A DNA stretch of 64,000 nt from Actinotalea alkalitolerans (GTDB taxonomy: Bacteria > Actinomycetota > Actinomycetes > Actinomycetales > Cellulomonadaceae). Position 1 is the stretch's first letter; each line of letters starts with the position of its first letter. The stretch is taken from assembly GCF_023369855.1 (NCBI RefSeq), contig NZ_JAMBPP010000011.1, positions 62,001 through 126,000 of the forward strand, given 5' to 3'. This document shows, in pieces, positions 31,706-59,915 of this stretch. A program made the position numbers and the translations under genes. Under the pieces are notes generated by a model that was not told the origin of the DNA, did no database searches, and worked only from the letters and a program-made list of their open reading frames with translations.

Positions 31706-31723
31706 CATACCCCATGGGGTATG
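31706..31723. promoter_or_regulatory. CsoR/CstR-type operator before the rhodanese lipoprotein
   Basis: CATACCCCATGGGGTATG is a perfect 18-bp palindrome with the A/T-flanked C-tract/G-tract layout of CsoR-superfamily operators. It ends 8 bp upstream of the gene start used here, so a bound repressor would block transcription or initiation. Three related sites occur elsewhere in the window, each in front of a sulfur-handling or Cys-rich gene. Confidence 0.75.
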
Positions 31724-31753
31724 TGGCGGGTGCGGGTGGCTCGATCTGTCTGC

Positions 31754-32254
31754 CTAGATGAAGAGCAGCTGCGCCCCAGCGGTCTTCTCGATGAAGTCGG
31801 TCGCCGAGATGATGCCCTCGACACCCTCGTAGAGGTCGGCGTCGCTGAGCTTGTTCATGTCGGCCGAGAGTCGGCACGCCCACAGGTGACCGCCGGCAGC
31901 GACGATCTGCTCGAGGAACTCGGGCACGTCGGGGACGTCGAGGTCGGCGATCGTCTTCTTCATCTGCTTGGTCGCCATCGCGGTCATGCCCGGGAGAGGG
32001 GTCAGCCCCATCGGCATGTGGGTCGCGGTGTTGCCCACCGGGGTGAACTTGAGATCACCCATGCGGGACCTGGTGATCATGTCGAAGCCCCAGAAGGTGA
32101 AGAACAGGTGGGTCTCGATCCCCTCACCGAGGGCCGCGTTGCCGAGGATCAGCCCGGGGTAGGCCATGTCGAGGTTGCCCTTGGAGCAGATGATCGCGAG
32201 CTTGCGGCCCTCGTCAGCGCTGTCGTCGAAGTTGGGCACGATCGGTGCGGACAT
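31754..32254 (-). CDS. DsrE/DsrF-family sulfur carrier protein
   Basis: 166 aa, DsrE2-like. The N-terminal 'KLAIICSKGNLDMAYPGLILGNAAL' has the conserved cysteine and is followed by 'THLFFTFWGFDMI', a hydrophobic signature of peripheral-membrane DsrE-like proteins; a second cysteine lies in 'GGHLWACRLSADMNK'. Such proteins pass persulfide sulfur between partners. ATG 32254 has GAGAGGA upstream. Third gene of the operon SQR-TusE-DsrE. The DsrE domain of the fusion at 57314 has the same layout, including 'VSMFFTFWGLNALRR'. Confidence 0.9.
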   Translation of the reverse strand: MSAPIVPNFDDSADEGRKLAIICSKGNLDMAYPGLILGNAALGEGIETHLFFTFWGFDMITRSRMGDLKFTPVGNTATHMPMGLTPLPGMTAMATKQMKKTIADLDVPDVPEFLEQIVAAGGHLWACRLSADMNKLSDADLYEGVEGIISATDFIEKTAGAQLLFI

Positions 32255-32309
32255 CGGTGGTCCTCTCGGGTGGGCGTGCAGTGGTGGGTCGACGGAGGCG
32301 GAAGAGTCT

Positions 32310-32624
32310 TCAGACGCAGCCGCGGGGCTTGGGCAGGCCCGCGATGTAGGCCATCTTCTTGGCCGGCTTCTTCGGGAAGAGCGCGAACTGCTCCTTGGTC
32401 GGCACGCCGGCGACGGTGGCGACCCGCCGGGTCGTGGCCGTCTCGCCCTGGGTCGCGAAGTCCTCCCGCAGGAACCGGATGAGCCGCCAGTGCGCCTCGG
32501 TCAGCTCCATGCCGATGTTGCTCGCGAGCACGGTGCCCAGGGCCTCGTCCCACTCGGAGGGCTCGGTCATGAATCCCTCGGCGTCGACGTGGACCTGGCG
32601 GCCGCCGATCTCGGTCACGGTCAT
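32310..32624 (-). CDS. TusE/DsrC-family sulfur relay protein
   Basis: 104 aa. It has the family pattern 'VHVDAEGFMTEPSEWDEALGTVLASN', 'LTEAHWRLIRFLRED' and the penultimate cysteine of the flexible C-terminal arm (Cys103 in 'KPRGCV'). The second arm cysteine of true DsrC, 11 residues earlier, is Ala here, so it is TusE-like: able to carry a persulfide but not to form the DsrC trisulfide. ATG 32624 follows GAGAGGAAACACCC. It lies 12 nt after the SQR stop and would accept sulfur produced by SQR or DsrE. Confidence 0.92.
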   Translation of the reverse strand: MTVTEIGGRQVHVDAEGFMTEPSEWDEALGTVLASNIGMELTEAHWRLIRFLREDFATQGETATTRRVATVAGVPTKEQFALFPKKPAKKMAYIAGLPKPRGCV

Positions 32625-32636
32625 GGGTGTTTCCTC

Positions 32637-33923
32637 TCAGTCGAGCCCGGCCGGGACGGCAGGCGGCGTCGTGGTGGTCGTGGCGGACACGGCCGGCGGG
32701 GCCTTCTTGCCGACCATCGACATGTGCGCGGTCACCGGCAGGTGCCGTCCGGGCAGCAGGACGTGCCAGTAGATCCAGCGGAAGGCGACCTTGCCCCAGT
32801 GGTTGAGCCGGGTCTCCTTGAGCAGGCTCATCGGCCCGACGACCGGCAGCGGGTAGACGCCCGTGAGCGGCTCGGTCTCGTAGTTGAAGTCGATGAGCAG
32901 CCCTCGGCCGTGGCCTGTCTCGATGAAGCAGTTGGCGTGGCCGTCGAAGCGTTCGGGCATCGGCCTGCCGTCGACGTGGGCCAGGAAGTTCGGCACGAAG
33001 ACGTCGGCGGCGAAGTGCGCGACCGAGCCCGCCTTGGAGGCAGGGATGTTCGTGGCGTCACCGATCGCGAAGATGGTGTCGTACCGGGTCGAGAGGAGGG
33101 TGTGCTTGTCGACAGGTACGTAGTTGAGGTCGTCGCCGAGGCCCGAGCGCCCGATGAAGTCGGCACCCATGTTGAGGGGCACCGTGACCAGCAGGTCGAA
33201 CGGGATCTCGCGTCCGTCGTAGGCGGTGAGCGTCCGGGCCTCGGTGTCCACCTGCTCGACGACGAAGTCGGGCTCGATCGCGATGCCACGCCGGGTGAGC
33301 ATGTCACCCAGCCGCTGGGAGGAGATCGGCTTGGTGAACGCACCGGGCAGCGGCGTGACGTAGGTGATCTCGACCTCGTCCCGGATGCCGCGGCCGGTGA
33401 ACCAGGCGTCGGCGAGGAAGGTGAACTCGAGCGGGGCGACCGGGCACTTGATCGGCATCTCGGTGATGTGCACGACCATCCGGCCGCCCGGCCACGTGGC
33501 GAGCGTGGCCGCCAGGGCGTTCGCACCGGTGTAGGTGTAGTACTCGTGGACCGAGTCACCCATCCCCTCGGCCATCCCCGGGGTCTCCTCGGGTCGGGGG
33601 GTGGTGCCCGTCGCGATGACGAGGTAGTCGTAGCCGAGCTCTGAGCCGTCCTCCAGCCGGACGAGGCGGGCCTCGGGGTCGACCCGGTCGACGGCTGCGG
33701 GGACCAGGCGCACCCCACGGGTCAGGGTGGGGCGCAACGGCTTGGCGACGTCGCTCGGCCGCAGGCCGCCGAACGGCAGGAAGAGGAAGCCCGGCTGGTA
33801 GAAGTGGGTCGGTGACGGCTCGACGACGGTGATCGTCCACTCGTCGTCGGGCAGTCGAGGTCGCAGCTTGTTGACCACCATCGTGCCGGCCGTGCCGGCA
33901 CCGAGGACCACCAGGTTCCGCAT
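32637..33923 (-). CDS. sqr: Sulfide:quinone oxidoreductase family flavoprotein
   Basis: 428-aa FAD enzyme of the SQR family, predicted to oxidise sulfide to protein- or thiol-bound persulfide with electrons going to quinone at the cytoplasmic membrane. The FAD motif 'LVVLGAGTAGTMVVNKL' opens the protein; cysteines occur in 'PIKCPVAPLEFTF' (active-site position) and 'HANCFIETG', and 'FAIGDATNIPASKAGSVAHF' binds FAD. The C terminus carries a hydrophobic 'HWGKVAFRWIYWHVLLPGRHLP' stretch suited to membrane contact. First gene of the SQR-TusE-DsrE operon. Upstream are a TAGCGT -10-like box at 33993-33998 and a degenerate CsoR/CstR-type site at 34036-34051. It could also be a related flavocytochrome-type enzyme. 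Confidence 0.9.
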   Translation of the reverse strand: MRNLVVLGAGTAGTMVVNKLRPRLPDDEWTITVVEPSPTHFYQPGFLFLPFGGLRPSDVAKPLRPTLTRGVRLVPAAVDRVDPEARLVRLEDGSELGYDYLVIATGTTPRPEETPGMAEGMGDSVHEYYTYTGANALAATLATWPGGRMVVHITEMPIKCPVAPLEFTFLADAWFTGRGIRDEVEITYVTPLPGAFTKPISSQRLGDMLTRRGIAIEPDFVVEQVDTEARTLTAYDGREIPFDLLVTVPLNMGADFIGRSGLGDDLNYVPVDKHTLLSTRYDTIFAIGDATNIPASKAGSVAHFAADVFVPNFLAHVDGRPMPERFDGHANCFIETGHGRGLLIDFNYETEPLTGVYPLPVVGPMSLLKETRLNHWGKVAFRWIYWHVLLPGRHLPVTAHMSMVGKKAPPAVSATTTTTPPAVPAGLD

Positions 33924-34035
33924 CGGAAGCTCCTTCGCCCACCTCGTCCCGGCGACGGTGCCGGGCAGGGCGCTGATGAACGCCCACCTCCGACGCTAGG
34001 GGGCGTCGACGCAGCCCGACAGGGACGTTCGTCGC

Positions 34036-34051
34036 ATACGGTAGGGGGTAT
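34036..34051. promoter_or_regulatory. CsoR/CstR-type operator (one good half) before SQR
   Basis: On the minus strand this reads ATACCCCCTACCGTAT: a strong ATACCCC half and a weak partner, with outer ATAC/GTAT symmetric. It is followed by GCGACGAACGTCC, which matches 11 of 13 bases next to the site at 59900. In both cases 37 bp separate the site from a TAnnGT -10-like box. Confidence 0.5.
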
Positions 34052-34086
34052 CTCTGGTGCGGGGCGGCAGCCGCGGGGTCCCGGTC

Positions 34087-35130
34087 TCAGCGTGCGAGGC
34101 GTTCGACCACCGCGCCGAACAGGCGGGGCGCACGGTGCGCCACCGGGACGACCGCTCCTCGCAGCGGCGAGGCGGCCCAGGCCACCAGGCCCGAGGTGAG
34201 CACCCGGTAGTCCCGGGTCGCGGACACCCACGCCCGCTCGTAGCCCGAAGGGTCGTCCAGGAACCGGATCGCCGCGGCGGCCTGCGCGAGGCCCACGCGC
34301 AGACCCTCCCCGGTCAGCGCGTCCACGTACCCCGAGGCGTCCCCCACCAGCCGCACCCGACCTGACGTCCGACGGCTCGTCCGCTGACGCAGCGGACCTG
34401 CACCCTTGACCCCGGTGGCCGGCTGAGCGTCGTGAAGGTGGCGGGCGAGCGCAGGGAACGAGGTGAGCGCGGCAGCGAAGTCGACCCGTGGCGGACCCAG
34501 CAGCGCCACGCCCACGAGGTCGGCCGCGACCGGGGTGACGTAGGCCTCGACGTCGCGGCCCCAGTGCACCTCGACCAGGTCGGTCCAGGGGGCGACCTCG
34601 AAGTGGCGACGCAGACCGAACCGACGAGGAGCGCGCAGGGACCCGACGGCGCGACCCGGGGACTCGAGACCGACCAGGCGGCGCACCGTGGAGTGCAGGC
34701 CGTCACAGGCCAGCAGCCAGCGCGCACGCACCCCGGCCGCCTCGACCCCGTGCGGCCACTGCTCGACCGACACGACGCGCCGCTCGAGCCGCTCCACCCC
34801 GAGCTCCACGCTGCGTCGGTCCAGCGCAGCGTGCAGGACGGTCCGACGCACCCCGCGGCCGGGTCCGGTGGCGAACGGGTGGTCGGCGTGCCGGCGCGCG
34901 TCCCGGTAGCTGATGCCCCGGAGCACATGGCCCGGCGGGTCGAGCCCCAGACCGAGCAGGGCCGTGAGGGTCCCGGGCATGAGCCCCTCACCGCAGGCCT
35001 TGTCCACCGGTCCGCGCCGCGGCTCGACCACCACCACGCTCAGACCCGCGAGCCGGGCACCGATCGCGCTCGCCAGGCCGACCGGACCACCGCCGACGAC
35101 CACGACGTCGGCGTCCAGGTCTGCGCTCAC
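34087..35130 (-). CDS. FAD-dependent oxidoreductase of the phenolic-lipid cluster (SrsC-like hydroxylase or reductase)
   Basis: 347-aa flavoprotein related to aromatic-ring hydroxylases and geranylgeranyl reductases. FAD motif 'DVVVVGGGPVGLASAIGARLAGLSVVVVE' is at the N terminus, followed by 'DKACGEGLMPGTLTAL', and the second FAD contact 'RVRLVGDASGYVDALTGEGLRVGL' near residue 260. The GTG at 35130 overlaps the methyltransferase stop (GTGA). In Streptomyces griseus the srsABC operon has the same three activities, where SrsC hydroxylates a methylated alkylresorcinol to a hydroquinone; that parallel is my basis for the role. It might instead reduce a prenyl chain. Confidence 0.82.
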   Translation of the reverse strand: MSADLDADVVVVGGGPVGLASAIGARLAGLSVVVVEPRRGPVDKACGEGLMPGTLTALLGLGLDPPGHVLRGISYRDARRHADHPFATGPGRGVRRTVLHAALDRRSVELGVERLERRVVSVEQWPHGVEAAGVRARWLLACDGLHSTVRRLVGLESPGRAVGSLRAPRRFGLRRHFEVAPWTDLVEVHWGRDVEAYVTPVAADLVGVALLGPPRVDFAAALTSFPALARHLHDAQPATGVKGAGPLRQRTSRRTSGRVRLVGDASGYVDALTGEGLRVGLAQAAAAIRFLDDPSGYERAWVSATRDYRVLTSGLVAWAASPLRGAVVPVAHRAPRLFGAVVERLAR

Positions 35131-35690
35131 GGGCGTCGCGGGTCGAGGTCGCGCGGCCCACCGCCGGAGGGCTCGGCCAGGGCCAGCCCGAGCGCCCGCT
35201 CCTCGGCGGGGATGCGGAACCGGAGCAGGAGCACCGCGTTCAGGACGGTGAAGGCCACGGCTGTCACCCAGGCGGTGTGCACCAGCGGCAGGGCGACACC
35301 CTCGACCACGACCGCCACGTAGTTCGGGTGCCGCAGCCATCGGTAGGGGCCGCCGGTGACCAGGGGGAGCCCGGGGACCACGATCACCCGGGTGTTCCAC
35401 CGCGGACCCAAGGTCGTGATGCACCACCACCGCAGGGCCTGGCTCCCCAGAGCCAGCACCAGGGCGGCCCAGCCGAGCGCAGGGACGAACGGGCGGTCGG
35501 TGACCAGGACCTCCACGACGCAGGCCACCAGCAGACCGGCGTGCAGCACGACCATCGCCGGGAAATGACCCCTGCCGGCCTCGACGCCGCCGCGGTCGAA
35601 GGACCAGCGTGCGTTGCGGGACGAGACCACGAGCTCGGCCAGTCGCTCCAGGGCGACCGCGGCGACCAGGACGACGAAGAGTGTCTGCAT
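35127..35690 (-). CDS. Isoprenylcysteine carboxyl-methyltransferase family protein (SrsB-like)
   Basis: 187-aa integral membrane methyltransferase with about four helices and the family's SAM-binding C-terminal part 'TGGPYRWLRHPNYVAVVVEGVALPLV'. Bacterial members next to type III PKS genes O-methylate the polyketide rather than protein cysteines. The ATG at 35690 shares one base with the PKS stop (TGATG), and its own stop overlaps the flavoprotein start, so the three genes form a tight operon. Confidence 0.88.
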   Translation of the reverse strand: MQTLFVVLVAAVALERLAELVVSSRNARWSFDRGGVEAGRGHFPAMVVLHAGLLVACVVEVLVTDRPFVPALGWAALVLALGSQALRWWCITTLGPRWNTRVIVVPGLPLVTGGPYRWLRHPNYVAVVVEGVALPLVHTAWVTAVAFTVLNAVLLLRFRIPAEERALGLALAEPSGGGPRDLDPRRP

Positions 35691-36772
35691 CAGCCAGGGC
35701 CCTCCTGCGGTTGGTGGAGCAGGACGATCTCCGCGCCGACCCCCGGGCCGAACGCGAACATCACGCCGACGTCGCCCGGCTCGAGGTCGCCACCGTCCAG
35801 GGTGTCGGCCAGCACGTGCAGCACCGAGGAGGAGGACAGGTTCCCCACGCGGTCCAGCGAGCTCCAGCTGCGCGCGAACGCCTCGTCGGCGACACCGAGA
35901 GCCCGGGCTGCGGCCTCGAGGATCCGTGGCCCCCCGGTGTGGGCCACCCAGGTCGTGACATCGCCCAGGGTGAGGTCGTGCTCCGCGAGGAGAGTCACGA
36001 CGTCCTGGCGGAGATGCTCCTCGATGACCTCGGGCATCCCCGCGGACAGCACGATCCGGAAGCCGCTCCCGCCGATGTCCCAGCCCAGGCTCCCCGCACT
36101 GTCGGGGTAGATCACGCTGCGGCTGCCCAGCACACGTGGTCCGGCAGTTCGCCCGGAGACCGCGCGCTCCTCGCCGACCATGACCACGGCGGCCGCGCCG
36201 TCGCCGAACAACCCGCTCGAGACCAGGTTCGCCAGCGAGTCGTCCCCCTGCTGGACGGTCAGTGAGCAGAGCTCGACCGACAGGAGCACCGCGACGTCCT
36301 GGGGGTGTCCGGTCAGGTAGTCGTGGACCCGGGCGACACCGGCCGAGCCACCGGCACACCCCCACCCGAACGACGGCAGCCGTCGCACGTCGCGCCGCAG
36401 ACCCAGCCGCTCGACCAGCAGCGAGTCGATCGAAGGGGCCGAGACCCCGGTGACCGACGTGAACAGCAGGAAGTCGACCTCCTCGGCGAGGATGTCGGCG
36501 TCGGCCAGGGCCTGGCGCACCGCGTGCTCGGCCAGGTCCGCCCCGAGCGCGATGAACAGGTCGTTGGCCTGGTCGAAGGAGGTCAGGCCGGCGTACTTCT
36601 CGAGCGGCAGCACGAGATGACGGGTGCTCACACCGCTCGCACGGTGAAGACGGTCCAGCACCGTGCGGCGTCCAGGGTCCTCGGTCAGCAACGGGCCGAT
36701 CACGGCCGAGATCTCCGCCTGGTCGTACACGTGCGGCGGGAGGGCGGGCGACACTGCGGCCAAACGCGACAT
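35690..36772 (-). CDS. Type III polyketide synthase
   Basis: 360-aa chalcone/stilbene synthase-like enzyme. The complete Cys-His-Asn triad is visible: Cys139 in 'GWGCAGGSAG', His278 in 'WVAHTGG', Asn311 in 'DRVGNLSS'. It would extend a fatty acyl or other CoA starter with malonyl-CoA to a resorcinol, resorcylic acid or pyrone. I chose ATG 36772 because CACGAT ends 6 nt before it; a GTG 21 nt upstream is the alternative. It heads the operon PKS-methyltransferase-flavoprotein and is divergent from a UbiA prenyltransferase, 56 bp away. Confidence 0.93.
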   Translation of the reverse strand: MSRLAAVSPALPPHVYDQAEISAVIGPLLTEDPGRRTVLDRLHRASGVSTRHLVLPLEKYAGLTSFDQANDLFIALGADLAEHAVRQALADADILAEEVDFLLFTSVTGVSAPSIDSLLVERLGLRRDVRRLPSFGWGCAGGSAGVARVHDYLTGHPQDVAVLLSVELCSLTVQQGDDSLANLVSSGLFGDGAAAVVMVGEERAVSGRTAGPRVLGSRSVIYPDSAGSLGWDIGGSGFRIVLSAGMPEVIEEHLRQDVVTLLAEHDLTLGDVTTWVAHTGGPRILEAAARALGVADEAFARSWSSLDRVGNLSSSSVLHVLADTLDGGDLEPGDVGVMFAFGPGVGAEIVLLHQPQEGPG

Positions 36773-36815
36773 CTCGGCATCGTGCCACGTCACCTGTGTT
36801 CGGGCGCGGCGTTGC

Positions 36816-36821
36816 TAGCGT
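36816..36821 (+). promoter_or_regulatory. Predicted -10 box of a leaderless promoter (UbiA gene)
   Basis: TAGCGT ends 7 nt before the GTG at 36829. The opposing PKS box (CACGAT, minus strand, 36779-36784) is only 31 bp away, so the two promoters are back to back. Confidence 0.45.
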
Positions 36822-36828
36822 CGGACTC

Positions 36829-37731
36829 GTGGACCCCCTCGCTCCGAACGCCCACCGGCGCAGCCCGTGGCCCGGGGCCCACGTCGGACGTGCCCTGCAG
36901 GGTCTGGCCCTCGCCGCGCACGCCGGGCCGACGCTGCTCGTGACCGGGCTGACCGGTGCGCTCGCGATCGGGGTCGGAGCACCCGGGGGGACCGCCGTGC
37001 TGGTCACCGCAGCGGTGCTCGCCGGACAGCTCTCGGTCGGGTGGTCCAACGACTGGCTCGACGCCGGCCGCGACGCGCTGGTGGAACGGTCGGAGAAGCC
37101 CGTCGTGGCCGGGCTGATCCGCCCCGGGACGCTGCGGACGGCTGCCCTCGTGGCTGCCGCCGGCTGCGTGGTGCTCTCCCTGGCCACCGGCCTGGTGCCC
37201 GGGACGGTCCACCTGGTGGCGGTGGCCGGCGCCTGGGCCTACAACCTGCGCCTCAAGAACACGGCCGCGTCGTGGCTGCCCTACGCGGTCTCCTTCGGGC
37301 TGCTCCCGGTCTTCATCGTCCTCGCCCTGCCCGGACGGCCGGTCCCACCGTGGTGGGTGGTGCTCGGTGCGTCCCTGCTGGGTGTCGGGGCGCACGTCGC
37401 GAACGTGCTCCCCGACCTCGAGGACGATGCGGCCACCGGTGTCCGGGGGCTCCCGCACCGGTGGGGTCGTGCACGGTCGACCGTGCTCGCGCTCTCGGTG
37501 CTGGTCGCGGCCGTCGGGGTGATCGTCCTGGGACCGCCGCCACCGGTGACCCCGGCCGGCTGGTCGGGGGCCGGGGCGGCACTCCTCCTGGCCGGGGCGG
37601 GAGCAGCGGCCGCGCACCGTGACGGGCGCAGCCGCCTGCCCTTCGCGCTGAGCATGGCCGTCGCGGCGGTCTGCGTGGTGCTCCTCGTGCTCGCCGGACC
37701 CGAGCTGGTCCCCGAGGCGCGAGCGACGTAG
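36829..37731 (+). CDS. UbiA-family prenyltransferase
   Basis: 300-aa membrane protein with about eight or nine helices. Both Asp-rich motifs of the family are present: NDWLDAGRD (near 66-74) for the prenyl diphosphate and 'DLEDDAATG' (near 194). 'KPVVAGLI' and 'GAWAYNLRLKNTAASWLPYAVSFGLLP' are typical. It would attach a polyprenyl chain to an aromatic or other acceptor. Being divergent from the type III PKS operon, an alkylresorcinol- or quinone-type acceptor is plausible, though it may equally serve another pathway. Start GTG 36829, leaderless by the upstream TAGCGT. Confidence 0.9.
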   Translation: MDPLAPNAHRRSPWPGAHVGRALQGLALAAHAGPTLLVTGLTGALAIGVGAPGGTAVLVTAAVLAGQLSVGWSNDWLDAGRDALVERSEKPVVAGLIRPGTLRTAALVAAAGCVVLSLATGLVPGTVHLVAVAGAWAYNLRLKNTAASWLPYAVSFGLLPVFIVLALPGRPVPPWWVVLGASLLGVGAHVANVLPDLEDDAATGVRGLPHRWGRARSTVLALSVLVAAVGVIVLGPPPPVTPAGWSGAGAALLLAGAGAAAAHRDGRSRLPFALSMAVAAVCVVLLVLAGPELVPEARAT

Positions 37732-37745
37732 AGGAGGACACCTGC

Positions 37746-39374: not shown

Positions 39375-39448
39375 AGGTCGAGCCTGAGCCCTGGTGGCCG
39401 TCCTGTCACCCCCGCGGTCGTGTCGGTGGTGGGCGGCACGATGGGCAG

Positions 39449-48668: not shown

Positions 48669-48785
48669 TCAGCGGCAGGTGCACTGCTGGGGTCGGGGTA
48701 CCCCGGCCATGACGGCATCGACGTGCATCCCGCAGCCGCTCCAGGTGACCTTTCCACATCGCGAGCATCGGGCCGGACTGCACAT
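48669..48785 (-). CDS. 38-aa Cys-rich (zinc-ribbon-like) peptide
   Basis: Thirty-eight codons on the minus strand. Cysteines fall at positions 2, 7, 10, 18, 35 and 37: 'CSPARCSRC', 'SGCGMH' and 'QQCTC', an arrangement that could bind one zinc or act in thiol chemistry. The ATG at 48785 has a near-ideal ribosome site (AAGGAGA, 7 nt spacer). I recall very similar short peptides (M-C-x-P-x-x-C-x-x-C-G-K-x-T-W-x-G-C-G-x-H) in many actinobacteria, without a known function. A CsoR/CstR-type operator 36 bp upstream ties it to the sulfur regulon. Confidence 0.85.
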   Translation of the reverse strand: MCSPARCSRCGKVTWSGCGMHVDAVMAGVPRPQQCTCR

Positions 48786-48821: not shown

Positions 48822-48837
48822 ATACCCCGGGGGGTAT
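48822..48837. promoter_or_regulatory. CsoR/CstR-type operator before the 38-aa peptide
   Basis: ATACCCCGGGGGGTAT: arms ATACCCC and GGGGTAT are perfect inverted repeats with a GG centre. It is 36 bp upstream of the 38-aa gene (minus strand), while the glutaminase gene on the other side has its own box 69 bp away. Confidence 0.75.
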
Positions 48838-48918: not shown

Positions 48919-49944
48919 GTGGGCACCGCGAAGAGGTCGACCAAGAAGCAGCAGGCGTCGACCACCGGTCGGTTGCCGGATCCGGGCACGATCCGGCGGC
49001 ACGTCGAGGACGCGTACGCGACGTGCCGTGACGACCACGGAGGCCAGGTCGCCGACTACATCCCGGGCCTCGCGCAGACCCCCGCCGATCTCTTCGGGAT
49101 CTGCTTCGCGGCGGTGGACGGTCAGGTCTACGAGCAGGGCGACGTCGAGGTGCCGTTCTCGATCCAGAGCATCTCCAAGCCCTTCGTCTACGCCTTGGTG
49201 TGCGAGGCGGTCGGCCACACCGAGGCCCGCGAGCGTCTCGGCGTCAACGGCACCGGTCTACCCTTCGACTCCGTGATGGCCGTCGAGCTGCACGAGGAAC
49301 GGACGATGAACCCGCTGGTCAACGCCGGGGCCATCGCGACGACGAGCCTGGTCCCTGGAGACACCGTCGAGGACAAGTGGCAGCTCGTCCTGCGAGGCCT
49401 GTCGCGGTTCGCCGGGCGCGACCTCGAGCTCGACGAGGAGATCCTCGCCTCGGAGTCCGAGTCCAACCGACGGAACAGGGGGATCGCCCACCTGCTGCGG
49501 GGCTACGACCAGCTCTACTTCGACCCGGACGGCACCACCGAGGTCTACACCCGGCAGTGCTCGATCGCCGTGACCGTGCACGACCTCGCGATCATGGCGG
49601 CCACCCTCGCCGACGGTGGGGTCAACCCGGTGACCGGCGAACGCGTCGTGGACGCGGGGACCTCGCGGCGGGTCCTGGCGGTCATGGCCACTGCAGGCAT
49701 GTACGAGAGATCCGGCGACTGGTTGTACGAGGTCGGCCTGCCCGGCAAGAGCGGGGTCAGCGGCGGCATCGTCACCGTCTCGCCGGGCAAGGGCGGGCTG
49801 GGGACGTTCTCCCCGCCGCTGGACGACGCGGGCAACAGCGTGCGTGGGCAACGGGCCACGAGGGAGCTCTCCGAGCGGCTCGGTCTCAACCTGTTCGCTT
49901 CGGGCGAGCCCATCGTGGACGGCGACATGGACGACCCTCGCTGA
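48919..49944 (+). CDS. glsA: Glutaminase A
   Basis: 341-aa serine-dependent glutaminase (beta-lactamase-like fold) that hydrolyses glutamine to glutamate and ammonia. Catalytic Ser and Lys are in 'FSIQSISKPFVYAL' (S-x-x-K), with 'MNPLVNAGAIATTSL', 'ESESNRRNRGIAHLL' and 'GLPGKSGVSGGIVTVSPG' also conserved. The N-terminal 25 residues ('GTAKRSTKKQQAS...') are a basic extension. GTG 48919 is preferred to an upstream ATG at 48846 because of the TAGGGT box and the usual family start. Convergent with the AGCS symporter. Confidence 0.94.
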   Translation: MGTAKRSTKKQQASTTGRLPDPGTIRRHVEDAYATCRDDHGGQVADYIPGLAQTPADLFGICFAAVDGQVYEQGDVEVPFSIQSISKPFVYALVCEAVGHTEARERLGVNGTGLPFDSVMAVELHEERTMNPLVNAGAIATTSLVPGDTVEDKWQLVLRGLSRFAGRDLELDEEILASESESNRRNRGIAHLLRGYDQLYFDPDGTTEVYTRQCSIAVTVHDLAIMAATLADGGVNPVTGERVVDAGTSRRVLAVMATAGMYERSGDWLYEVGLPGKSGVSGGIVTVSPGKGGLGTFSPPLDDAGNSVRGQRATRELSERLGLNLFASGEPIVDGDMDDPR

Positions 49945-52389: not shown

Positions 52390-53369
52390 GCTGCTCCCTC
52401 CGTGAGGTCGGTGGCGGGCTCGTCCCCGCTCTGGGCGAGATGACCGGTCAGGGCGAGGAAGACCTCGTCGAGGCTTGGTTGACCGAGGGAGAACTGGGCG
52501 ACGGTGATGCCCTGCGCCTCGAGCTCGGAGATCGCCCGCATCGCAGGGGCCGACGACTCGACCGTTGCTGACAGCGCTGCCGGGTCGGAGGCTACGAGCA
52601 CCTCGGCGCCCAGGGCGCGGGCGACGATCTCGGCGGCCCGGGGTCGGTCCTCGGGGTGGCGCACGCGCACATGGAGGGCACCCGAGCCCACCGAGGCCTT
52701 GAGCTGGCCCGGGGTGCCCTCGGCGATCACCCGCCCGGTGTCGATCACCGAGATCCTGTCGGCGAGCTGGTCGGCCTCGTCCAGGTACTGGGTGGTGAGC
52801 AGGACGGTCGTCCCGGCGCCCACCATCGCGCGGATGATGTCCCACACCTGGTTGCGGCTGCGGGGGTCCAGGCCGGTCGTCGGCTCGTCGAGGAAGATCA
52901 GCTCGGGGGTCACGACGATGCTCGCCGCGATGTCGATGCGGCGGCGCATCCCGCCGGAGTACTTCTTGACCAGCCGGTCGCTCGCCTCGCTGAGCCCGAA
53001 GGCGTCGAGCAGCTCGGCAGCCCGACGGCGTGCCCCGCTGCGGGAGTAGCCGAGCAGGCGTGCGACCAGGACGAGGTTCTCCAGGCCGGTGAGGTCCTCG
53101 TCCACCGAGGCGAACTGCCCGGTGAGGGCCACGGCGCTGCGCACCTCGTCGGCCTGGTGCACGACGTCCTTGCCCAGGACCCTGGCCGTCCCGCCGTCGG
53201 GCCGCAGCAGGGTCGCGAGCATCCGGATGGTGGTCGTCTTGCCCGCTCCGTTGGGTCCCAGGAAACCGTGCACCCCGCCTCGTTCCACCTGCAGGTCGAT
53301 GCCGTCCACCGCGGGGGTGCCGTTGTAGGTCTTGACCAGCTTCTCGGTCTCGATCGCCAGGTCGGTCAT
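52386..53369 (-). CDS. ABC-2 type exporter ATPase (DrrA-like)
   Basis: 327 aa. Walker [10 protein letters not shown] (near 38-46), signature '[16 protein letters not shown]', Walker B '[13 protein letters not shown]', and the H-loop position is Gln ('[11 protein letters not shown]'), as is normal in this subfamily. A C-terminal DrrA extension ('[23 protein letters not shown]') is present. ATG 53369 follows GAGGAG; an in-frame ATG 27 nt upstream lacks one. Divergent from the PadR regulator with an 84-bp gap. Confidence 0.95.
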
Positions 53370-53424
53370 GGCACTCCTCGCACGTCGGTCTGTCAACGGG
53401 TGGTGGGCCCAAGGACCCCTTCTC

Positions 53425-53437
53425 TTCCGAATAGGAA
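53425..53437. promoter_or_regulatory. Candidate PadR operator in the exporter/regulator gap
   Basis: TTCCGAATAGGAA: inverted TTCC/GGAA arms with a 5-bp centre, 4 bp upstream of the padR-like gene's TAGGAT box and 56 bp from the ATPase start. Placement suits autorepression and repression of the exporter. Confidence 0.45.
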
Positions 53438-53440
53438 CAC

Positions 53441-53446
53441 TAGGAT
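53441..53446 (+). promoter_or_regulatory. Predicted -10 box of a leaderless promoter (PadR gene)
   Basis: TAGGAT ends 7 nt before the ATG at 53454. Confidence 0.5.
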
Positions 53447-53453
53447 CGTCTCG

Positions 53454-54140
53454 ATGACCGACGCAACGGAATTGCCCGACGGATCGGGACCGGACGCCCG
53501 GCTGAGCCCGACGGCCTACGCGCTCCTGGGGCTGCTGGCGTTCACCGAGCGGAGCGACGTCGGGCTGACCGGGTACGAGATCAAGCAGATGGCCGACCGC
53601 ACGCTGCGCTTCTACTGGGTCTCACCGGCGATGAGCCAGGTCTACTCCGAGATGGGGCGCCTGGTCCGAGCGGGCATGGTCGCCGCGCAGCACGATGCCG
53701 CCGGCGCGCGCCCGACCACCCGGTACGTGATCACCGACGACGGGCGGGTCGCCGTGCGGACGTGGATGGACCGCACCGCGGTCGGCTTCCCGGTGCTCAA
53801 GCACCCGGTGGCCCTGCGTCTGCTGATGGGCCATCTGAGCACCCCCGAGGCGATGCGGGCCATGCTCGAGGAGTACCGGGCGTCGTTGGCCGTAAGGCGG
53901 GCCGAGCTGCAGGGCGTCCGTGACCAGCTGGGCGACCGCGAGGAGGTGAGGTACCCGGCCATGGTCGCCGACTGGGGGCTGGACTACTACGACGCCGAGG
54001 CACGGATCGTGACGTCGCTCGCCGACCGTGCCGGGCAGGTGCCTGGTGTCAGTACGACGGCGAGAACGCCCGCACCCGGTGCCACCGAGGACCGTACCGA
54101 CGGTGGAGCACCGGCGAGTCCACCTCCGCCAGGGAGGTGA
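53454..54140 (+). CDS. PadR-family transcriptional regulator
   Basis: 228 aa. N-terminal winged helix ('[30 protein letters not shown]', '[24 protein letters not shown]', '[16 protein letters not shown]', about 16-108) and a C-terminal helical dimerisation region ('[34 protein letters not shown]') place it in the PadR/AphA-type group. The last 35 residues are a Pro/Ala/Thr-rich tail that overlaps the opposite-strand 102-aa gene by 92 bp. Being divergent from the DrrAB-like exporter, it probably represses it and responds to exported compounds. Confidence 0.92.
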
Positions 54141-54357
54141 CGGTCGCCCTGACACGCCGCGCGATCGAGGTCGCGTCCTGGTCGCCGTCGGCCAGGAACC
54201 GGACGGTGACCCTCGCCTGGCCGCGGACCACGGAGATCTCGCAGGCCTCGACCGTCGTGCGCTCTCGCGCCGCCGTGGCCGCCGTCGGCAGCACCGTCGA
54301 CGGGTCGGTCCCCGGTCGCAGCATCCCGACGGCAAGGGTCACACGGTAGGAGGGCAC
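54049..54357 (-). CDS. Hypothetical protein, 102 aa
   Basis: Reads 'YRVTLAVGMLRPGTDPSTVLPTAATAARERTTVEACEI', then '[36 protein letters not shown]' and a basic end '[10 protein letters not shown]'. The alternating pattern looks like a small alpha-beta protein, and I recall similar actinobacterial hypotheticals. GTG 54357 is the natural start; an in-frame extension further upstream would run antisense to the whole FNT gene. It overlaps the low-complexity end of the PadR gene. Confidence 0.6.
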   Translation of the reverse strand: MPSYRVTLAVGMLRPGTDPSTVLPTAATAARERTTVEACEISVVRGQARVTVRFLADGDQDATSIARRVRATVTSLAEVDSPVLHRRYGPRWHRVRAFSPSY

Positions 54358-54438
54358 GCCCCGAAGCGTAGGTCTGCGGAGCCGTCTGGGCCGATCGGCC
54401 GGTCTCGAGGGACCCTCGGGCGTGGGAACGTATCGCCC

Positions 54439-55296
54439 ATGACCTCCGACCCGTATCAGCTGTTCCCCGGCAAGCACTTCATCAGCACGGTCCTCGAGGC
54501 GCTCGAGACGAAGACCGCGATGTCGGGCGAGCTCGCGCGGCGCTACCTCCAGCGGGCCGCGATGGCCGGGATCATCATCGGGCTGCTGTACGTCGCGCAC
54601 TACGGCGTCGTGGCTGCCTTCGACACGGTGGTCGTGGGCGGCTCGTCGCTGCGCGAGCTCGGGCGTCTGGCAGGGGCACTGACCTTCGGCTGGGCTCTGG
54701 TGTTCATCTACTACTCCAAGTCCGAGCTCCTCACCTCGAACATGATGGTCGTGTCGATCGGTGCCTACTACCGGCGGACGAGCTGGGCCAAGGCGCTGCG
54801 CCTGCTCGGCCTGTGCTTCCTCGGCAACTTCCTGGGTGGACTGCTCATCGCAGCGCTCGTGCGGTTCAGCACCCTGACCGACGGCGCCACCTTCACGGAG
54901 ATGCAGGCCTCGGTCGACCACAAGCTCGAGTTCATCACGGCGGGTGCCGGCGGGTGGGGCGACCTGTTCGTCCGGGCCGTCCTGTGCAACTTCGCGATCA
55001 ACCTGGCGATGCTGCTGATCTACAACGGCCTGATCAAGGACGACCTGACGAAGAGCCTGGTGATGATCATCGCGGTGTTCATCTTCGCCTTCCTGGGCCT
55101 CGAGCACTCGGTGGCCAACACGGTGCTGTTCACCGTCGTCGGCCTCCAGGACGGCATCCACCTGGGTCTCGCCGGGGCCAACGTGGCGATCGCGCTGCTC
55201 GGCAACTTCATCGGCGGTGGGCTGCTCATCGGCCTGTACTACGCCTACGCCAACGACGACGCGCGCTACCTGCGCAAGCGCTCGACGCACTCCTGA
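54439..55296 (+). CDS. Formate/nitrite transporter (FNT) family channel
   Basis: 285-aa membrane protein with six helices. It has FNT features such as 'KTAMSGELARRYLQRAAMAGIIIGLLYVAHYGVV', 'SKSELLTSNMMVV', 'LCNFAINLAML' and 'FAFLGLEHSVANTVLFTVV' with the conserved pore His. Could pass formate, nitrite or hydrosulfide. It is not linked to pflB, which is 45 kb away. ATG 54439 has no clear ribosome site; TATCGC lies 2 nt before it. Confidence 0.87.
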   Translation: MTSDPYQLFPGKHFISTVLEALETKTAMSGELARRYLQRAAMAGIIIGLLYVAHYGVVAAFDTVVVGGSSLRELGRLAGALTFGWALVFIYYSKSELLTSNMMVVSIGAYYRRTSWAKALRLLGLCFLGNFLGGLLIAALVRFSTLTDGATFTEMQASVDHKLEFITAGAGGWGDLFVRAVLCNFAINLAMLLIYNGLIKDDLTKSLVMIIAVFIFAFLGLEHSVANTVLFTVVGLQDGIHLGLAGANVAIALLGNFIGGGLLIGLYYAYANDDARYLRKRSTHS

Positions 55297-55298
55297 CC

Positions 55299-57203
55299 TC
55301 AGCGCGGAGCGTCGTCGAGCACCTCGTAGCGGTTCTTCCCTCGCGCCTTGGCGCGGTACATCGCGGCGTCCGCGCGGTGGAGCACCTCGTCGACGGTCGC
55401 CGGGGCGGGTTCGTCCCGTGCGGGGGGCCTGGCATACGTGATGCCGATGCTCGCCGTGACGTGATGGGCACGGCCCCGGACATGGACCACCGGGGCGAGC
55501 GCCTCGGTGACCCGGCGCGCGATCTCCACGGCCAGCTCCCGCACGGACGTCCCCCCCGCAGCGCGCGGTGAGGTGCCCTCCCGGTCCCAGGGCTCGACGA
55601 CGATCACGAACTCGTCCCCGCCGACACGGGCCACGACGTCATCGGGTCGCAGCGCGTGCTGCAGCCGCAGGGCGGTCTCCTGCAGGACGATGTCACCGGC
55701 CGAGTGCCCCCCGGAGTCGTTGACCTCCTTGAACCCGTCGAGGTCGATGAACAGCACGGCGACCTCCTGACCGTCGACGTGCGCCCGGCTCAGGGCGGCT
55801 TCGAGCGTGGTGACCAGGAGCGCCCTGTTCGGCAGGCCCGTGAGGCTGTCGTGCAGGGCCGCATGGGTCAACCTGTCCTCGGCATGCACCAGGTCGCTGA
55901 CGTCGCGGATCACGGCGAGCATCTCGACGACGCTGCCCTCGGAGTCCCGGCGGAACGGCGTCACCCGGTGGTTGAGCCAGCACCAGCGATCGTCGACCTC
56001 CCGGGCGCGGTAGCGGCTCTGCAGGGTGTGGCCGTCCTGGAGGTGCAAGGCCTCGCCGTAGAGGCCGGCCAGCTCGGACAGGTCGTCAGGGTGGACCAGG
56101 GCGAGCAGGCCCGGGATCCCCAGGGTCATCAGGTCCTCGACCGCCGAACCGAGGATCTCCTTGCCCGGTGACACGTACAGCAGTCGACCTTCGCTCACCT
56201 CGGTGACCACGGTGATGTCGGGGCTGGCCGCGAGGACCGCGTCGGAGAAGGCGCTGGCACGTCGGGCCGTGGACTGCGCGTGCTCGAGGTCCGTCATGTC
56301 CAGGTGGCTCCCGCGCACCCTCGTGGGGCGACCGTCGTCGTCGTGCTCCACCTCCAGGGCCGCCCGGATCACACGCTCGGACGAGTCGTCGGCGCGCAGG
56401 ATGCGGAACTCGACGTCGTGACGACCCGCCGTCGTGAGAGCCGTCGCCCACACGGCGCGAGCCCGGGCCCGGTCGCTCTCGACCACGAGCTCGGCGCAGC
56501 GCTCAGGGGTCAGCGAGCCTGGTTCGGCGCCCCACAGGGCGCACAGCTCGTCCGAGAACCTCCAGGTGCCCGTCGTGGTGTCGAGGTCGAACCCACCGAG
56601 CCGACCGAGCAGCTGGGCCTCACGGAGCTTGTGGCGTTCCTCGACCAGCGCGCGCGTCGCGGCGCGCTCGGACGTGACGTCCGTGAGGGCTGCCACCGCT
56701 CCGAGGACCTCGCCGTCGGGCCCGGTCATCCGGCTCGCCCGGACGACGACCTCGCGGTGAGGTCCTCGGACGGGGCCGACCAGGACGTCCAGGGGTTCGA
56801 GGTCCTCGCCGCGCAGCGCCCGGACCAGCGGGTACCGGTCGGCCGGGAGGGGTCGACCTGACGGGTGGAGGACGTCGATCAACGGTTCGAGGTCAGCGGT
56901 GTGTAGGCCGCCGAGCCCGGACTGCAGACCGAACAGCTCGCGCTCGGCGCGGTTGCTGACGTTGATCACCCCGTGGGCGTCGCACGAGACGATGCCCACC
57001 TCGATCGTCTCGAGCAGGGCATCGGTGAAGCTGGTCCGGCGGGCGAGCTCGGCACTGGTCGCCGCGAGCTCGGCATGTGCGGCCGCCAGCTCGCCGGGGG
57101 CATGGTCGAGGGCCTCCGCAGGGCGGGGCCGGCGTTGGGTGGGCAGCAGCACGCGCAGGAGGGGGGAGAGTCGCTGCCGCAGGACGGTACGTCGGACCAG
57201 CAC
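55299..57203 (-). CDS. PAS-domain diguanylate cyclase
   Basis: 634 aa, no membrane helix. After a basic head and a short coiled coil come three PAS-type sensor domains: about 55-175 ('DALLETIEVGIVSCDAHGVINVSNRAERELFG'), about 190-310 ('FDLDTTTGTWRFSDELCALWG', PAS fold 3 type) and about 318-445 ('DAVLAASPDITVVTEVSEGRLLYVSPG'). The GGDEF domain begins at 'DSLTGLPNRALL' with an intact 'VGGDEF' and 'FIDLDGFKEVND'. It should make c-di-GMP in response to a cytoplasmic signal. No EAL domain. ATG/GTG start at 57203 has a weak ribosome site. Confidence 0.92.
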   Translation of the reverse strand: MLVRRTVLRQRLSPLLRVLLPTQRRPRPAEALDHAPGELAAAHAELAATSAELARRTSFTDALLETIEVGIVSCDAHGVINVSNRAERELFGLQSGLGGLHTADLEPLIDVLHPSGRPLPADRYPLVRALRGEDLEPLDVLVGPVRGPHREVVVRASRMTGPDGEVLGAVAALTDVTSERAATRALVEERHKLREAQLLGRLGGFDLDTTTGTWRFSDELCALWGAEPGSLTPERCAELVVESDRARARAVWATALTTAGRHDVEFRILRADDSSERVIRAALEVEHDDDGRPTRVRGSHLDMTDLEHAQSTARRASAFSDAVLAASPDITVVTEVSEGRLLYVSPGKEILGSAVEDLMTLGIPGLLALVHPDDLSELAGLYGEALHLQDGHTLQSRYRAREVDDRWCWLNHRVTPFRRDSEGSVVEMLAVIRDVSDLVHAEDRLTHAALHDSLTGLPNRALLVTTLEAALSRAHVDGQEVAVLFIDLDGFKEVNDSGGHSAGDIVLQETALRLQHALRPDDVVARVGGDEFVIVVEPWDREGTSPRAAGGTSVRELAVEIARRVTEALAPVVHVRGRAHHVTASIGITYARPPARDEPAPATVDEVLHRADAAMYRAKARGKNRYEVLDDAPR

Positions 57204-57313
57204 GGGACCTCCCTGTTCGCGTCGGCCCCTGCGACGACGTCCCCGACAGACGGGACGTCCCTCTCCCTATCGGCACACAGCCGCTCGACCTGAGCGAGAG
57301 CTACCCGGCCTGA

Positions 57314-59824
57314 TCAGATGAAGAACGCACCGTTGGACCTGTCGGCCTCACCGAGGAACGTGGCCACCCCGCCCAGCTCGACCCCCTCCACGAGGTCCTC
57401 GGGAGCGATCCCGAGCAGGTCCATGGTCATCGTGCAGCCGACGAGGCGGACCCCGGAGGCCTGGGCCGAGGCGATGAGCTCGGGCAGGCTGGGCACGTTG
57501 TTGTCCCGCATGACCTTCTTCATCAGCCCGGTGCCCGCCCCGAGCATGTGCAGCGTCGAGAGCTTCAGGTGGTCGGCCCCGGAAGGGAGCATCGCGGAGA
57601 ACATCCGGTTCATCACCGACCGTGGCCGGGCGGGCGGGTCCTGGCGACGTAGGGCGTTGAGCCCCCAGAAGGTGAAGAACATCGAGACCTCGTCGCCCAT
57701 CGCGACGGCGCCGTTGGCCAGGATGAACGCGGCGAGGACCTTGTCGAGCTCGCCCGAGAAGACGACGAAGGACTTCATGCCCTGCTGGTCCGGCGTGCCC
57801 GGTTCGGGCGCCGCTCCGGGGAGCTGGGACGAGGTGCCCTTGCGGATCCGGGCCGCGTAGCCGGGACCCTCGGGGGTCAGCGAGAGCACGGTGTGCCCGT
57901 TGCGTGAGGCCCACGCCGGCGCGTCGAGCCGGAAGCCCGGGTCCGAGACGTGCGCCACGACCTCGTCGCCGTCGGCCAGCGTCCGGATGGTGTCCTGGAG
58001 CTTCATGATGGGGCCCGGGCAGGCCAGGCCGGTGCAGTCGAGGTCGACCAGCACCCCCGTGGAGACCGACGGTGCGGGGGACGCTGCACGGACGGGAGCG
58101 GGGGCGGTCTCGGCGTAGGAGATCACCGGCGTGGGGGAGTCGACCTCACTCGGCGTGACGTCGTGGAACGCCCGGAAGGTGGCCATCCCGCCCGAGAGCG
58201 TCCGGACGTCGGTGAAGCCGCGCTGCACCAGCGCGCGGTAGGCCAGGTAGCTCCGGAACCCCACGGCGCAGTACAGGCGCAGGGGTGTGGCCCGGTCCCA
58301 GTCCGCCTGGGCCGACCGGAGCTCCTCGAGCGGGACGTTCTCGGCACCCGGGAGGTGCCAGAGAGAGAACTCCTGCGGTCCACGCACGTCGATGACCCGG
58401 GCGCCGTCGGTGGCCTGGGGGTAGTCGCGGGCGTGCCACAGCTCGAGGTCGCCTCGCAGGGTGTTCGACGCGACGAAACCGATCATGTTGACAGGGTCCT
58501 TGGCCGAGCCGAAGGGCGGCGCGTAGGCCAGCTCGAGCGTCTCGAGGTCCTCGACCGTCATGCCCGCCCGGAGCGCGGTCGCCAGGACGTCGAGCCGCTT
58601 GTCGACACCGTCGAAGCCGGCGATCTGGGCCCCGAGGATACGTCCGGTGCCGGGCGAGAAGAGCAGCTTCATGTGCATCATCGCCGTCCCGGGGTAGTAC
58701 CCGGCATGCCCGTGCGGATGGGTCTGGACCGCGGCGTAGGGCACCCCCGCTGCGAGGAGCTGCTTCTCCGAGGCGCCCGTGCCGCCGGCCACCATGTCGA
58801 AGACCTTCACGACCGACGTCCCCTGGGTCGAGTCGTAGACGGTGTCCCGTCCGCAGATGTTGTCGGCGGCGACCCGACCCTGGCGGTTCGCCGGCCCGGC
58901 GAGCGGGATGAGCCACGTCTCGGGCAGCACGGTGTGCTCGACCTCGACGGCGTCGCCGGCCGCGTAGATGTGAGGGTCTGACGTGCGCATGTGGTGGTCG
59001 ACGGCGATCCCGCCCCGGGGACCGATCTCCAGGCCGGCGGCGACCGCCAGCTCGGTGCTGGGGCGCACCCCGGCGGCGAGCATCACCAGGTCGGTGGTCA
59101 GGACGGTGCCGTTCTTCAGCTCGACGGCGACCCTCCCGTCCGGTGTCTCGACGAAGGCTGCGGCAGCAGTCCCCAGGTGCAGCCCGATGCCGTGCGCGCG
59201 CAGGTAGTTCTCCATGGTCGTGGTGATCTCGCGGTCCAGCGGGGGCATGATCTGGTCGGCCATCTCCACGACCTCGACCTGGACGCCTCGACCGTGCAGG
59301 TTCTCTGCCATCTCGAGGCCGATGTACCCCGCGCCGATCACCACCGCGTGGGAGACGCCACCCGTGCGAGCGCCGTCCCCGGCGCCGTCGACCGCGGCCT
59401 TGATCGTGTCCATGTCCCCGATGCGGCGCAGGACGTGGACCGCGGGGAGGTCGATGCCCGGCAGGGGTGGTCGGACGGGCGTGGCGCCGGGCGCCAGGGC
59501 GAGGGTGTCGTAGGACTCGACGGAGACCTCACCCGAGTCGACCGAGCGCACCGTGACCGTGCGCGCCTCCCGGTCGATCCCCACGACCTCCATGCCCACG
59601 CGCACGTCGATCGCGAGCGATCCCTGCAGGCTCTGCGGTGTCTGGAGCATGAGCCGGCTGCGATCGGTGATGACCTCGCCGACGTGGTAGGGCAGGCCGC
59701 AGTTCGCGAACGAGACGTGGTGGCTGCGCTCGAGCACGACGATCTCGGCGTGCTCGTCCAGGCGACGAGCTCGTGCGGCGATGGACATCCCTGCGGCGAC
59801 CCCGCCGACGACGACGATCTTCAT
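57314..59824 (-). CDS. Four-domain sulfur enzyme: CoA-disulfide-reductase-like / rhodanese / TusA / DsrE
   Basis: 836 aa. (1) About 1-450: FAD/NAD disulfide reductase with 'IVVVGGVAAGMSIAARAR' and active-site Cys42 in 'FANCGLPYHVG', as in CoA-disulfide reductases and NADH-dependent persulfide reductases. (2) About 465-555: rhodanese with 'VIDVRGPQEFSLWHLPGAENVP' and Cys in 'LYCAVGFRS'. (3) About 595-665: TusA with 'DCTGLACPGPIMKLQD'. (4) About 685-836: DsrE2-like with 'VSMFFTFWGLNALRR' and Cys in 'VGCTMTMDL'. Such fusions pass and reduce sulfane sulfur within one chain. Upstream are TACGGT (59857-59862) and a CsoR/CstR-type operator (59900-59915). Confidence 0.93.
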   Translation of the reverse strand: MKIVVVGGVAAGMSIAARARRLDEHAEIVVLERSHHVSFANCGLPYHVGEVITDRSRLMLQTPQSLQGSLAIDVRVGMEVVGIDREARTVTVRSVDSGEVSVESYDTLALAPGATPVRPPLPGIDLPAVHVLRRIGDMDTIKAAVDGAGDGARTGGVSHAVVIGAGYIGLEMAENLHGRGVQVEVVEMADQIMPPLDREITTTMENYLRAHGIGLHLGTAAAAFVETPDGRVAVELKNGTVLTTDLVMLAAGVRPSTELAVAAGLEIGPRGGIAVDHHMRTSDPHIYAAGDAVEVEHTVLPETWLIPLAGPANRQGRVAADNICGRDTVYDSTQGTSVVKVFDMVAGGTGASEKQLLAAGVPYAAVQTHPHGHAGYYPGTAMMHMKLLFSPGTGRILGAQIAGFDGVDKRLDVLATALRAGMTVEDLETLELAYAPPFGSAKDPVNMIGFVASNTLRGDLELWHARDYPQATDGARVIDVRGPQEFSLWHLPGAENVPLEELRSAQADWDRATPLRLYCAVGFRSYLAYRALVQRGFTDVRTLSGGMATFRAFHDVTPSEVDSPTPVISYAETAPAPVRAASPAPSVSTGVLVDLDCTGLACPGPIMKLQDTIRTLADGDEVVAHVSDPGFRLDAPAWASRNGHTVLSLTPEGPGYAARIRKGTSSQLPGAAPEPGTPDQQGMKSFVVFSGELDKVLAAFILANGAVAMGDEVSMFFTFWGLNALRRQDPPARPRSVMNRMFSAMLPSGADHLKLSTLHMLGAGTGLMKKVMRDNNVPSLPELIASAQASGVRLVGCTMTMDLLGIAPEDLVEGVELGGVATFLGEADRSNGAFFI

Positions 59825-59899
59825 GGCTGGTGTTCCTGTCCTCGGTGTGTCCTGCGACCGTACGAGGCGGGGCGGGACTCTCCCCAGGACTTCCGTCGC

Positions 59900-59915
59900 A
59901 TACCCCTGCGGGTAT
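59900..59915. promoter_or_regulatory. CsoR/CstR-type operator before the four-domain sulfur enzyme
   Basis: ATACCCCTGCGGGTAT: ATACCC/GGGTAT arms are perfect with a 4-bp centre. It lies 75 bp upstream of the gene start and 37 bp from a TACGGT -10-like box, the same distance as at the SQR promoter. Confidence 0.7.

Follow-up and report, generated by a model that had tools for sequence, protein, structure and literature searches.

A predicted dispersed sulfur regulon with putative CstR-type operators and a cysteine-rich microprotein in Actinotalea alkalitolerans

A 64,000-nucleotide stretch of the Actinotalea alkalitolerans genome (RefSeq assembly GCF_023369855.1, contig NZ_JAMBPP010000011.1, positions 62,001 to 126,000; hereafter the window) carries four short inverted repeats ahead of genes for sulfur-handling or cysteine-rich proteins. 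These sites are very likely operators of a CstR-type persulfide-sensing repressor that governs a dispersed sulfur regulon, to which a cysteine-rich microprotein of 38 residues, here called Cys38, would also belong. The newest part of the finding is this peptide, whose place as a conserved member of the regulon is supported by sequence comparison. An earlier note, made from the letters of this DNA, had described the repeats and proposed that an unlinked CstR-like repressor coordinates the loci.

Predicted operator sites in the window and the genome

All four repeats lie where the earlier note had placed them, and the genes behind them are those it had named: a rhodanese lipoprotein, a 38-residue Cys peptide, a four-domain enzyme and a group encoding sulfide:quinone oxidoreductase (SQR), TusE and DsrE. 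Three of the repeats are predicted 16-bp CstR-type operators, to which no strand is assigned. The first, ATACCCCATGGGGTAT (31707..31722), is separated by a gap of 9 bp from the start codon of RhdLP (31263..31697, minus strand), a rhodanese-domain lipoprotein (PF00581, 9.9e-21) with active-site C103 and a lipobox-like start that was judged by eye. The second, ATACCCCGGGGGGTAT (48822..48837), lies 36 bp upstream of Cys38. The third, ATACCCCTGCGGGTAT (59900..59915), is found 75 bp upstream of the gene for an 836-residue fusion (57314..59824, minus strand), which joins a part resembling coenzyme A-disulfide reductase (CoADR) to rhodanese, TusA and DsrE_2 parts (Pfam: Pyr_redox, rhodanese, TusA and DrsE_2) and has cysteines at C42, C519, C602 (CPxP) and C797. 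The fourth repeat, ATACCCCCTACCGTAT (34036..34051, minus strand), is weaker and starts 128 bp ahead of SQR. A glutaminase gene (48919-49944, plus strand) was rejected as the target of the 48822 site, this pairing being unique to the window among the genus sites listed.

Taken together, the repeats exceed chance. The exact form ATACCCN4GGGTAT occurs three times in the window and not once in 100 dinucleotide shuffles, and ATACC-N6-GGTAT with at most one mismatch occurs four times, against a shuffle mean of 0.06 and no shuffle that reached four. The motif is not scattered at random over the 4.37-Mb genome either, where it has 10 sites at up to two mismatches and its reversed pattern none. Exact ATACC-N6-GGTAT likewise has 10 sites, eight of which, including that of the Cys peptide, lie ahead of sulfur or thiol genes. 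Five of the sites at such genes fall outside the window. They precede a thioredoxin gene followed by two small genes (C2:140804, where C with a number denotes a contig), a thioredoxin–DUF302 unit (C11:314136), a rhodanese–PDO–TauE unit (C31:65413; the name PDO, persulfide dioxygenase, is drawn from lactamase and rhodanese domains), a CoADR–rhodanese unit (C33:163234) and a rhodanese–cstR–methyltransferase unit (C33:164603). The units are spread over four contigs and include two pairs of neighbours.

The regulator

A PF02583 search of the genome found no CsoR-family gene in the window, in agreement with the earlier note, and two such genes on other contigs. One of them, cstR on contig C33, encodes a protein of 87 residues (PF02583, 3e-22; 79.2 bits against a cut-off of 22.8). 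It is located between two of the sites, within the putative rhodanese–cstR–methyltransferase operon, which is itself led by an operator and thus places the gene for autoregulation. Its two conserved cysteines, C35 and C64, align with those of the structure 7mq1; the S. aureus CstR equivalents are C31 and C60, although the alignment was made to 7mq1. All 17 genus orthologues, the own gene included, have both cysteines and a Gly at the position of the CsoR His. The His four residues before the second Cys is a copper ligand in CsoR; this residue is Gly in CstR and His in the CsoR paralogue of the same genome. The operators stand ahead of rhodanese, PDO, TauE and CoADR genes as well as the operon of the regulator itself, as is typical of targets of the CstR branch. 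The marks of a copper-sensing CsoR are absent from the 87-residue protein: it lacks the His, its sites measure 16 bp, and the 17-bp sites stand at copper genes. Its sequence supports a CstR-type regulator unlinked to the window, and the repressor postulated in the earlier note thereby gains a candidate in silico.

The cluster of cstR and the CoADR–rhodanese genes (L013:4502-10620) is flanked by nadB-like and nadC-like genes, named by eye, and the nadC-like gene still adjoins the cstR cluster in many genomes of the genus.

Distribution across the genus and the family

CstR is encoded in 17 of 19 genomes of the genus, with 67-100 % identity. These 19 genomes hold 111 distinct exact 16-bp sites, all of which were fetched and classified; one-mismatch sites were fetched in part. 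Genes of the reference regulon classes lie near 84 of the exact sites, "near" meaning within 250 bp (460 bp for cstR); the classes themselves were defined by eight own-genome sites, which are among the 84. A further 9 sites are at tRNA-Gln genes and 18 elsewhere. An upstream site accompanies the RhdLP orthologue in 11 of the 19 genomes (one of these with one mismatch), a count that leaves aside whether the gene is present in the remaining eight, and the orthologue of the four-domain gene in 7 of 19 (three exact, four with one mismatch). Ten proteins encoded beside unassigned or one-mismatch genus sites were scanned, and six belong to, or come near, the thiol and sulfur proteins (DsbD-like, YgaP-like membrane domain, TusA, glutaredoxin, VKOR and CMD). 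The rest comprise a Pyr_redox protein, a 4Fe-4S protein, an SDR and a small protein whose SHOCT match stays below threshold. Three genomes of the genus (G006, G014 and G016) have extra sites ahead of DsbD-like, YgaP-like, CMD, 4Fe-4S and glutaredoxin genes (L076, L080, L114, L117, L119, L127, L129, L136), which suggests a larger regulon there.

In a wider sample of 200 genomes, the exact 16-bp site was found in 137 of 149 CstR-positive versus 3 of 51 CstR-negative genomes (Fisher 4.7e-31), where positivity means an E-value below 1e-14, a threshold chosen after the two-peaked distribution had been viewed, and where the Fisher value overstates independence because all 200 genomes belong to one family. 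The reversed control matched 1 of the 200.

These two limits weigh against the proposed reading, and several other points do so as well. The exact site is missing from 12 of the 149 CstR-positive genomes and present in three CstR-negative ones (G005, G015 and G084). In G005, it precedes a probable copper ATPase gene, and a 17-bp site lies at a distance of about 110 bp. The G015 assembly may simply lack cstR, since the start of a contig cuts the rhodanese gene that stands in front of cstR in the genus. Among the exact genus sites, 18 of 111 have no gene of a reference class, and two of the ten genome sites have no sulfur target; both were rejected as regulon members, one (C30:139360 of the own genome, G000) because the 5' end of a tRNA-Gln gene, identified by eye through its sequence and CTG anticodon, reaches into it, and the other (C33:208687) because no sulfur gene is nearby. 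The best solved-structure match of CstR, 7mq1 (4.1e-10), was deposited as csoR, although we take it to be the pneumococcal CstR structure, and it ranks barely ahead of the CsoR entry 2hh7 (7.2e-10). It is therefore the Cys/His pattern together with the set of target genes, and not this ranking, that supports the CstR assignment. Finally, for this organism the reading is drawn from sequence.

The half-degenerate site at 34036 belongs among these points too. It has two mismatches to ATACCCN4GGGTAT and is one of four extra genome-wide matches to ATACC-N6-GGTAT with one mismatch. Since the reversed control has three such matches, the site on its own is no better than chance. Position speaks in its favour: in eight other SQR genes of the genus a site lies at -93 to -182 (four exact, four with one mismatch), and these genes came from site-centred loci, with SQR genes lacking a site left uncounted, so that they inform on position and not on frequency. 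A weak but probable operator is therefore suggested by its placement. The genes behind it encode a type III SQR (32637..33923, minus strand; NF049943, 610.9 bits against a cut-off of 525), a TusE/DsrC-like sulfur carrier with a single C-terminal Cys103 (32310..32624, minus strand; TIGR03342 above cut-off, PF04358 2.2e-29) and a DsrE2-like sulfur carrier of the DrsE_2 family (31754..32254, minus strand; PF13686, 7.1e-28). The SQR passes the NCBIfam cut-off for the selenoprotein subtype of type III SQR, while its frame is fully open and uses ordinary codons.

Proposed mechanism and comparison with known systems

Reduced CstR would bind the 16-bp palindromes (TAC-N8-GTA) at or near promoters and thereby repress. 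When sulfide is oxidised and persulfides or polysulfides build up, C35 and C64 would become modified and CstR would leave the DNA. Eight units would then be induced, with SQR–TusE–DsrE2 probably as a ninth. The enzyme units would be the four-domain CoADR–rhodanese–TusA–DsrE fusion, CoADR–rhodanese, the lipoprotein rhodanese and rhodanese–PDO–TauE, the last of which may turn persulfide into sulfite that is then exported; the others would be the two thioredoxin units, the cstR operon itself and Cys38. CsoR would be kept separate by a palindrome that is one base longer (TAC-N9-GTA). DNA binding by this CstR, the promoter positions, repression and the continuity of the operons are predicted from the arrangement of sites and genes, and persulfide is the probable signal by analogy with the Streptomyces coelicolor counterpart.

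Known systems resemble this scheme in part. The S. coelicolor protein ScCsoR (SCO0620) binds the 16-bp sequence ATACCn6GGTAT and is released by polysulfide, for which Cys37 and Cys66 are needed (PMC7533328). Both circuits have a CsoR-like repressor with two cysteines, the same operator, and PDO, TauE, rhodanese and the repressor itself as targets. In S. coelicolor, however, four genes lie in one region, whereas eight or nine units on four contigs are proposed here; the four-domain fusion, CoADR–rhodanese, two thioredoxin units, Cys38 and probably SQR–TusE–DsrE2 are extra, and cstR and the PDO unit are separate. Staphylococcus aureus CstR belongs to the same branch of the CsoR family and also has targets in sulfide and persulfide detoxification, but according to its authors it likely regulates a single operon, cst, directly (PMC5480029). 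Thermus thermophilus TTHA1953, a thiol-sensing repressor of the CsoR family tied to sulfur oxidation, shares a dependence on repeat spacing, one base added to or removed from its inverted repeat costing about 10- to 15-fold; unlike the sites here, its operator TACNNTACNNNNGTANNGTA has no continuous G tract (PMC10318464). The two CstR-type systems compared thus control a single operon in S. aureus and a small cluster in S. coelicolor, whereas the sites here are genome-wide, and a sensor of this kind appears to govern scattered units that include added enzymes and a microprotein. The dispersed sites amount to a list of candidate players in actinobacterial sulfide oxidation.

The nature of the signal allows another view, in which CstR binds these sites but mainly senses other thiol stress, such as nitroxyl, electrophiles or disulfide stress, with sulfide as one input. 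The thioredoxin units would fit such a role, and nitroxyl directly cross-links CstR in S. aureus (PMC5480029). Most targets, however, act on sulfane sulfur (SQR, PDO, TusA, DsrE, rhodaneses and TauE), and polysulfide releases the Streptomyces counterpart (PMC7533328), which makes a primarily different signal unlikely.

The microprotein Cys38

Cys38 (48669..48785, minus strand; MCSPARCSRCGKVTWSGCGMHVDAVMAGVPRPQQCTCR) is preceded by the Shine-Dalgarno sequence AAGGAGA. The window copy is a single-gene unit that meets the neighbouring gene tail to tail. The genus contains 17 matches in 15 genomes, namely 15 intact copies, one with an in-frame stop and one partial copy (G015) without a site nearby. 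All 15 intact copies are in operator-led units: the operator is directly upstream in eight, four copies lie behind a thioredoxin unit, and three lie behind CoADR–rhodanese in the cstR region. The copy with the in-frame stop, which also has a non-standard start, is a decayed second copy in the own genome (L017 ~7219-7325, minus strand) that adjoins the operator of the rhodanese–PDO–TauE unit.

A wider search used protein patterns only, with no operator in them; 80 of 86 loci were taken, and all counts out of 80 refer to these. The patterns were built from 11 peptides of one alignment (A1) out of near-operator loci and therefore lean toward the CSPARC subtype. Among the genera represented are Cellulomonas, Georgenia, Kineosporia, Isoptericola, Sinomonas, Gordonia, Cryobacterium and Microcella. 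An exact operator lies at -115 to -30 in 46 of the 80 loci, a site with at most one mismatch lies up to 2.3 kb upstream in 31 further loci, and three have none. These 46 exact sites share 6,880 bases between them; over all 719,526 bases the count of exact sites is 100, against none for the reversed motif. After removal of 11 genus loci already counted, the exact site is at -115 to -30 in 40 of 69 loci and any site (up to one mismatch) within 2.3 kb upstream in 66 of 69; near-duplicates were kept among these (for example L203/L205 and L219/L220/L222), and far sites were counted without a per-site check of strand continuity. The pair L203 and L205 deserves a remark: the L205 contig, from a Proteobacteria metagenome-assembled genome (BP9.bin99), has the same Cys38 and similar neighbours as L203 from an Actinomycetes one of the same sample series (BP9.bin26), and is possibly misbinned.

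Plasmids also carry Cys38. Twelve such loci, hand-picked from two overlapping match lists (84 and 69 records) and including two that share protein accessions (L278 and L314), have the operator directly upstream in seven (one with one mismatch), further upstream in the unit in two and nowhere in three. In 6 of the 12, the fetched stretch has a gene annotated as a CsoR-family ("metal-sensitive") regulator. The looser link of these more divergent copies to the operator (9 of 12 in the unit, 7 of 12 direct) counts against the proposed reading.

It is very unlikely that the Cys38 frame is a Cys-responsive leader peptide, or a chance open reading frame near an operator, with no working protein. Mycobacteria have Cys-responsive leader frames, and Cys38 is short, Cys-rich and located ahead of other genes in several genomes. 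Against this, the window copy is by itself, with the next gene facing it tail to tail. All 80 relatives share nine residues (C2, C7, C10, W15, G17, C18, G19, H21 and C35), although several of these are part of the search patterns themselves. The proportion of non-synonymous differences (pN 0.20) is below that of synonymous ones (pS 0.63), and pN < pS holds in 80 of 80 comparisons, with relatives that had been collected by protein similarity.

Cys38 matched no family in Pfam or NCBIfam at E 0.01. The best match among PDB sequences, a 13-residue segment of RPB10, has an E-value of 0.04 and assigns it to no named family. For its predicted structure (predicted local distance difference test score, pLDDT, 82; predicted template modelling score, pTM, 0.45), Foldseek found nothing at E up to 0.001, and because of the pTM and the lack of a significant fold match, no fold is claimed. 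Searches of the literature found nothing by the sequence string KVTWSGCG and nothing evidently related by topic. The operator wiring gives this widespread, family-less tiny protein a pathway and hence a testable role; most tentatively, it could be a zinc-ribbon-like thiol carrier or buffer for sulfane sulfur.

Predicted separation from the copper regulon

The second PF02583 gene, csoR on contig C34, encodes a protein that retains the His and scores 139.7 bits against the RicR copper-repressor model, below its cut-off of 175. A 17-bp site stands at csoR, behind which lie copZ-like and copA-like genes (named by eye); another stands at the second CopA-like gene, so that both 17-bp sites of the own genome are at copper genes. 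In the family sample, 119 of 149 CstR-positive and 42 of 51 CstR-negative genomes have the 17-bp site, which shows no link to CstR. Among the 28 matches listed (L280-L307), 18 of the 17-bp loci have CsoR, CopA-like or CopZ-like genes within 500 bp, the CopA-like genes at such loci sharing 34-40 % identity; nine are tRNA-Gln leaders and one (L284) is beside an unclassified 66-residue protein.

Since the 16-bp site tracks CstR while the 17-bp site mostly marks copper genes, one spacer base separates the predicted persulfide and copper regulons in this sample. The split agrees with the published TAC-N9-GTA of Streptomyces lividans CsoR (PMC3902906) and ATACCn6GGTAT of the S. coelicolor sensor (PMC7533328). 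The S. lividans operator is likewise a TAC/GTA inverted repeat around G tracts with near-identical half sites, but it is 17 bp long and serves copper genes, whereas TAC-N8-GTA (16 bp) is found at sulfur genes here (PMC3902906). The one-base difference could simply explain why the two paralogous repressors do not cross-talk although their half sites are nearly the same. No statement of such a rule was found in the available text of the literature searched on these operators, a weak hint of its novelty.

Copper is argued against as the signal because the CsoR paralogue goes with a 17-bp site and a gene set of its own. That the 16-bp sites belong to CsoR, as a copper regulon incidentally touching sulfur genes, is highly improbable: the operators look alike, S. 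lividans CsoR using ATATACCCCTNAGGGGTATAT (PMC3902906), and the CstR-less G005 has its 16-bp site at a probable copper ATPase gene, but csoR with its copZ-like and copA-like neighbours and the second CopA-like gene carry 17-bp sites, the frequency of the 16-bp site and not that of the 17-bp site differs with CstR, and the 16-bp targets are sulfur genes.

A bolder extension of the CstR reading is speculative and somewhat doubtful. It would make Cys38 a microprotein dedicated to sulfane sulfur, one that carries or buffers persulfide as a zinc-ribbon-like or thiol-rich protein, and a core rather than accessory CstR output across Actinobacteria, also on plasmids, that was overlooked as too short to be named or often annotated; a spacer code of 16 versus 17 bp would part the regulons of the two paralogous repressors.

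The tRNA-Gln genes provide a look-alike of both operators. A leader ATACCCC (GTACCCC in one case) lies ahead of all 19 genus tRNA-Gln genes found (L016:7361-7376, L177-L195). It is complementary to the tRNA's own 5' end and so resembles an operator with a spacing of 16 or 17 bp. The leader is independent of CstR and is present in the CstR-less G005 too.

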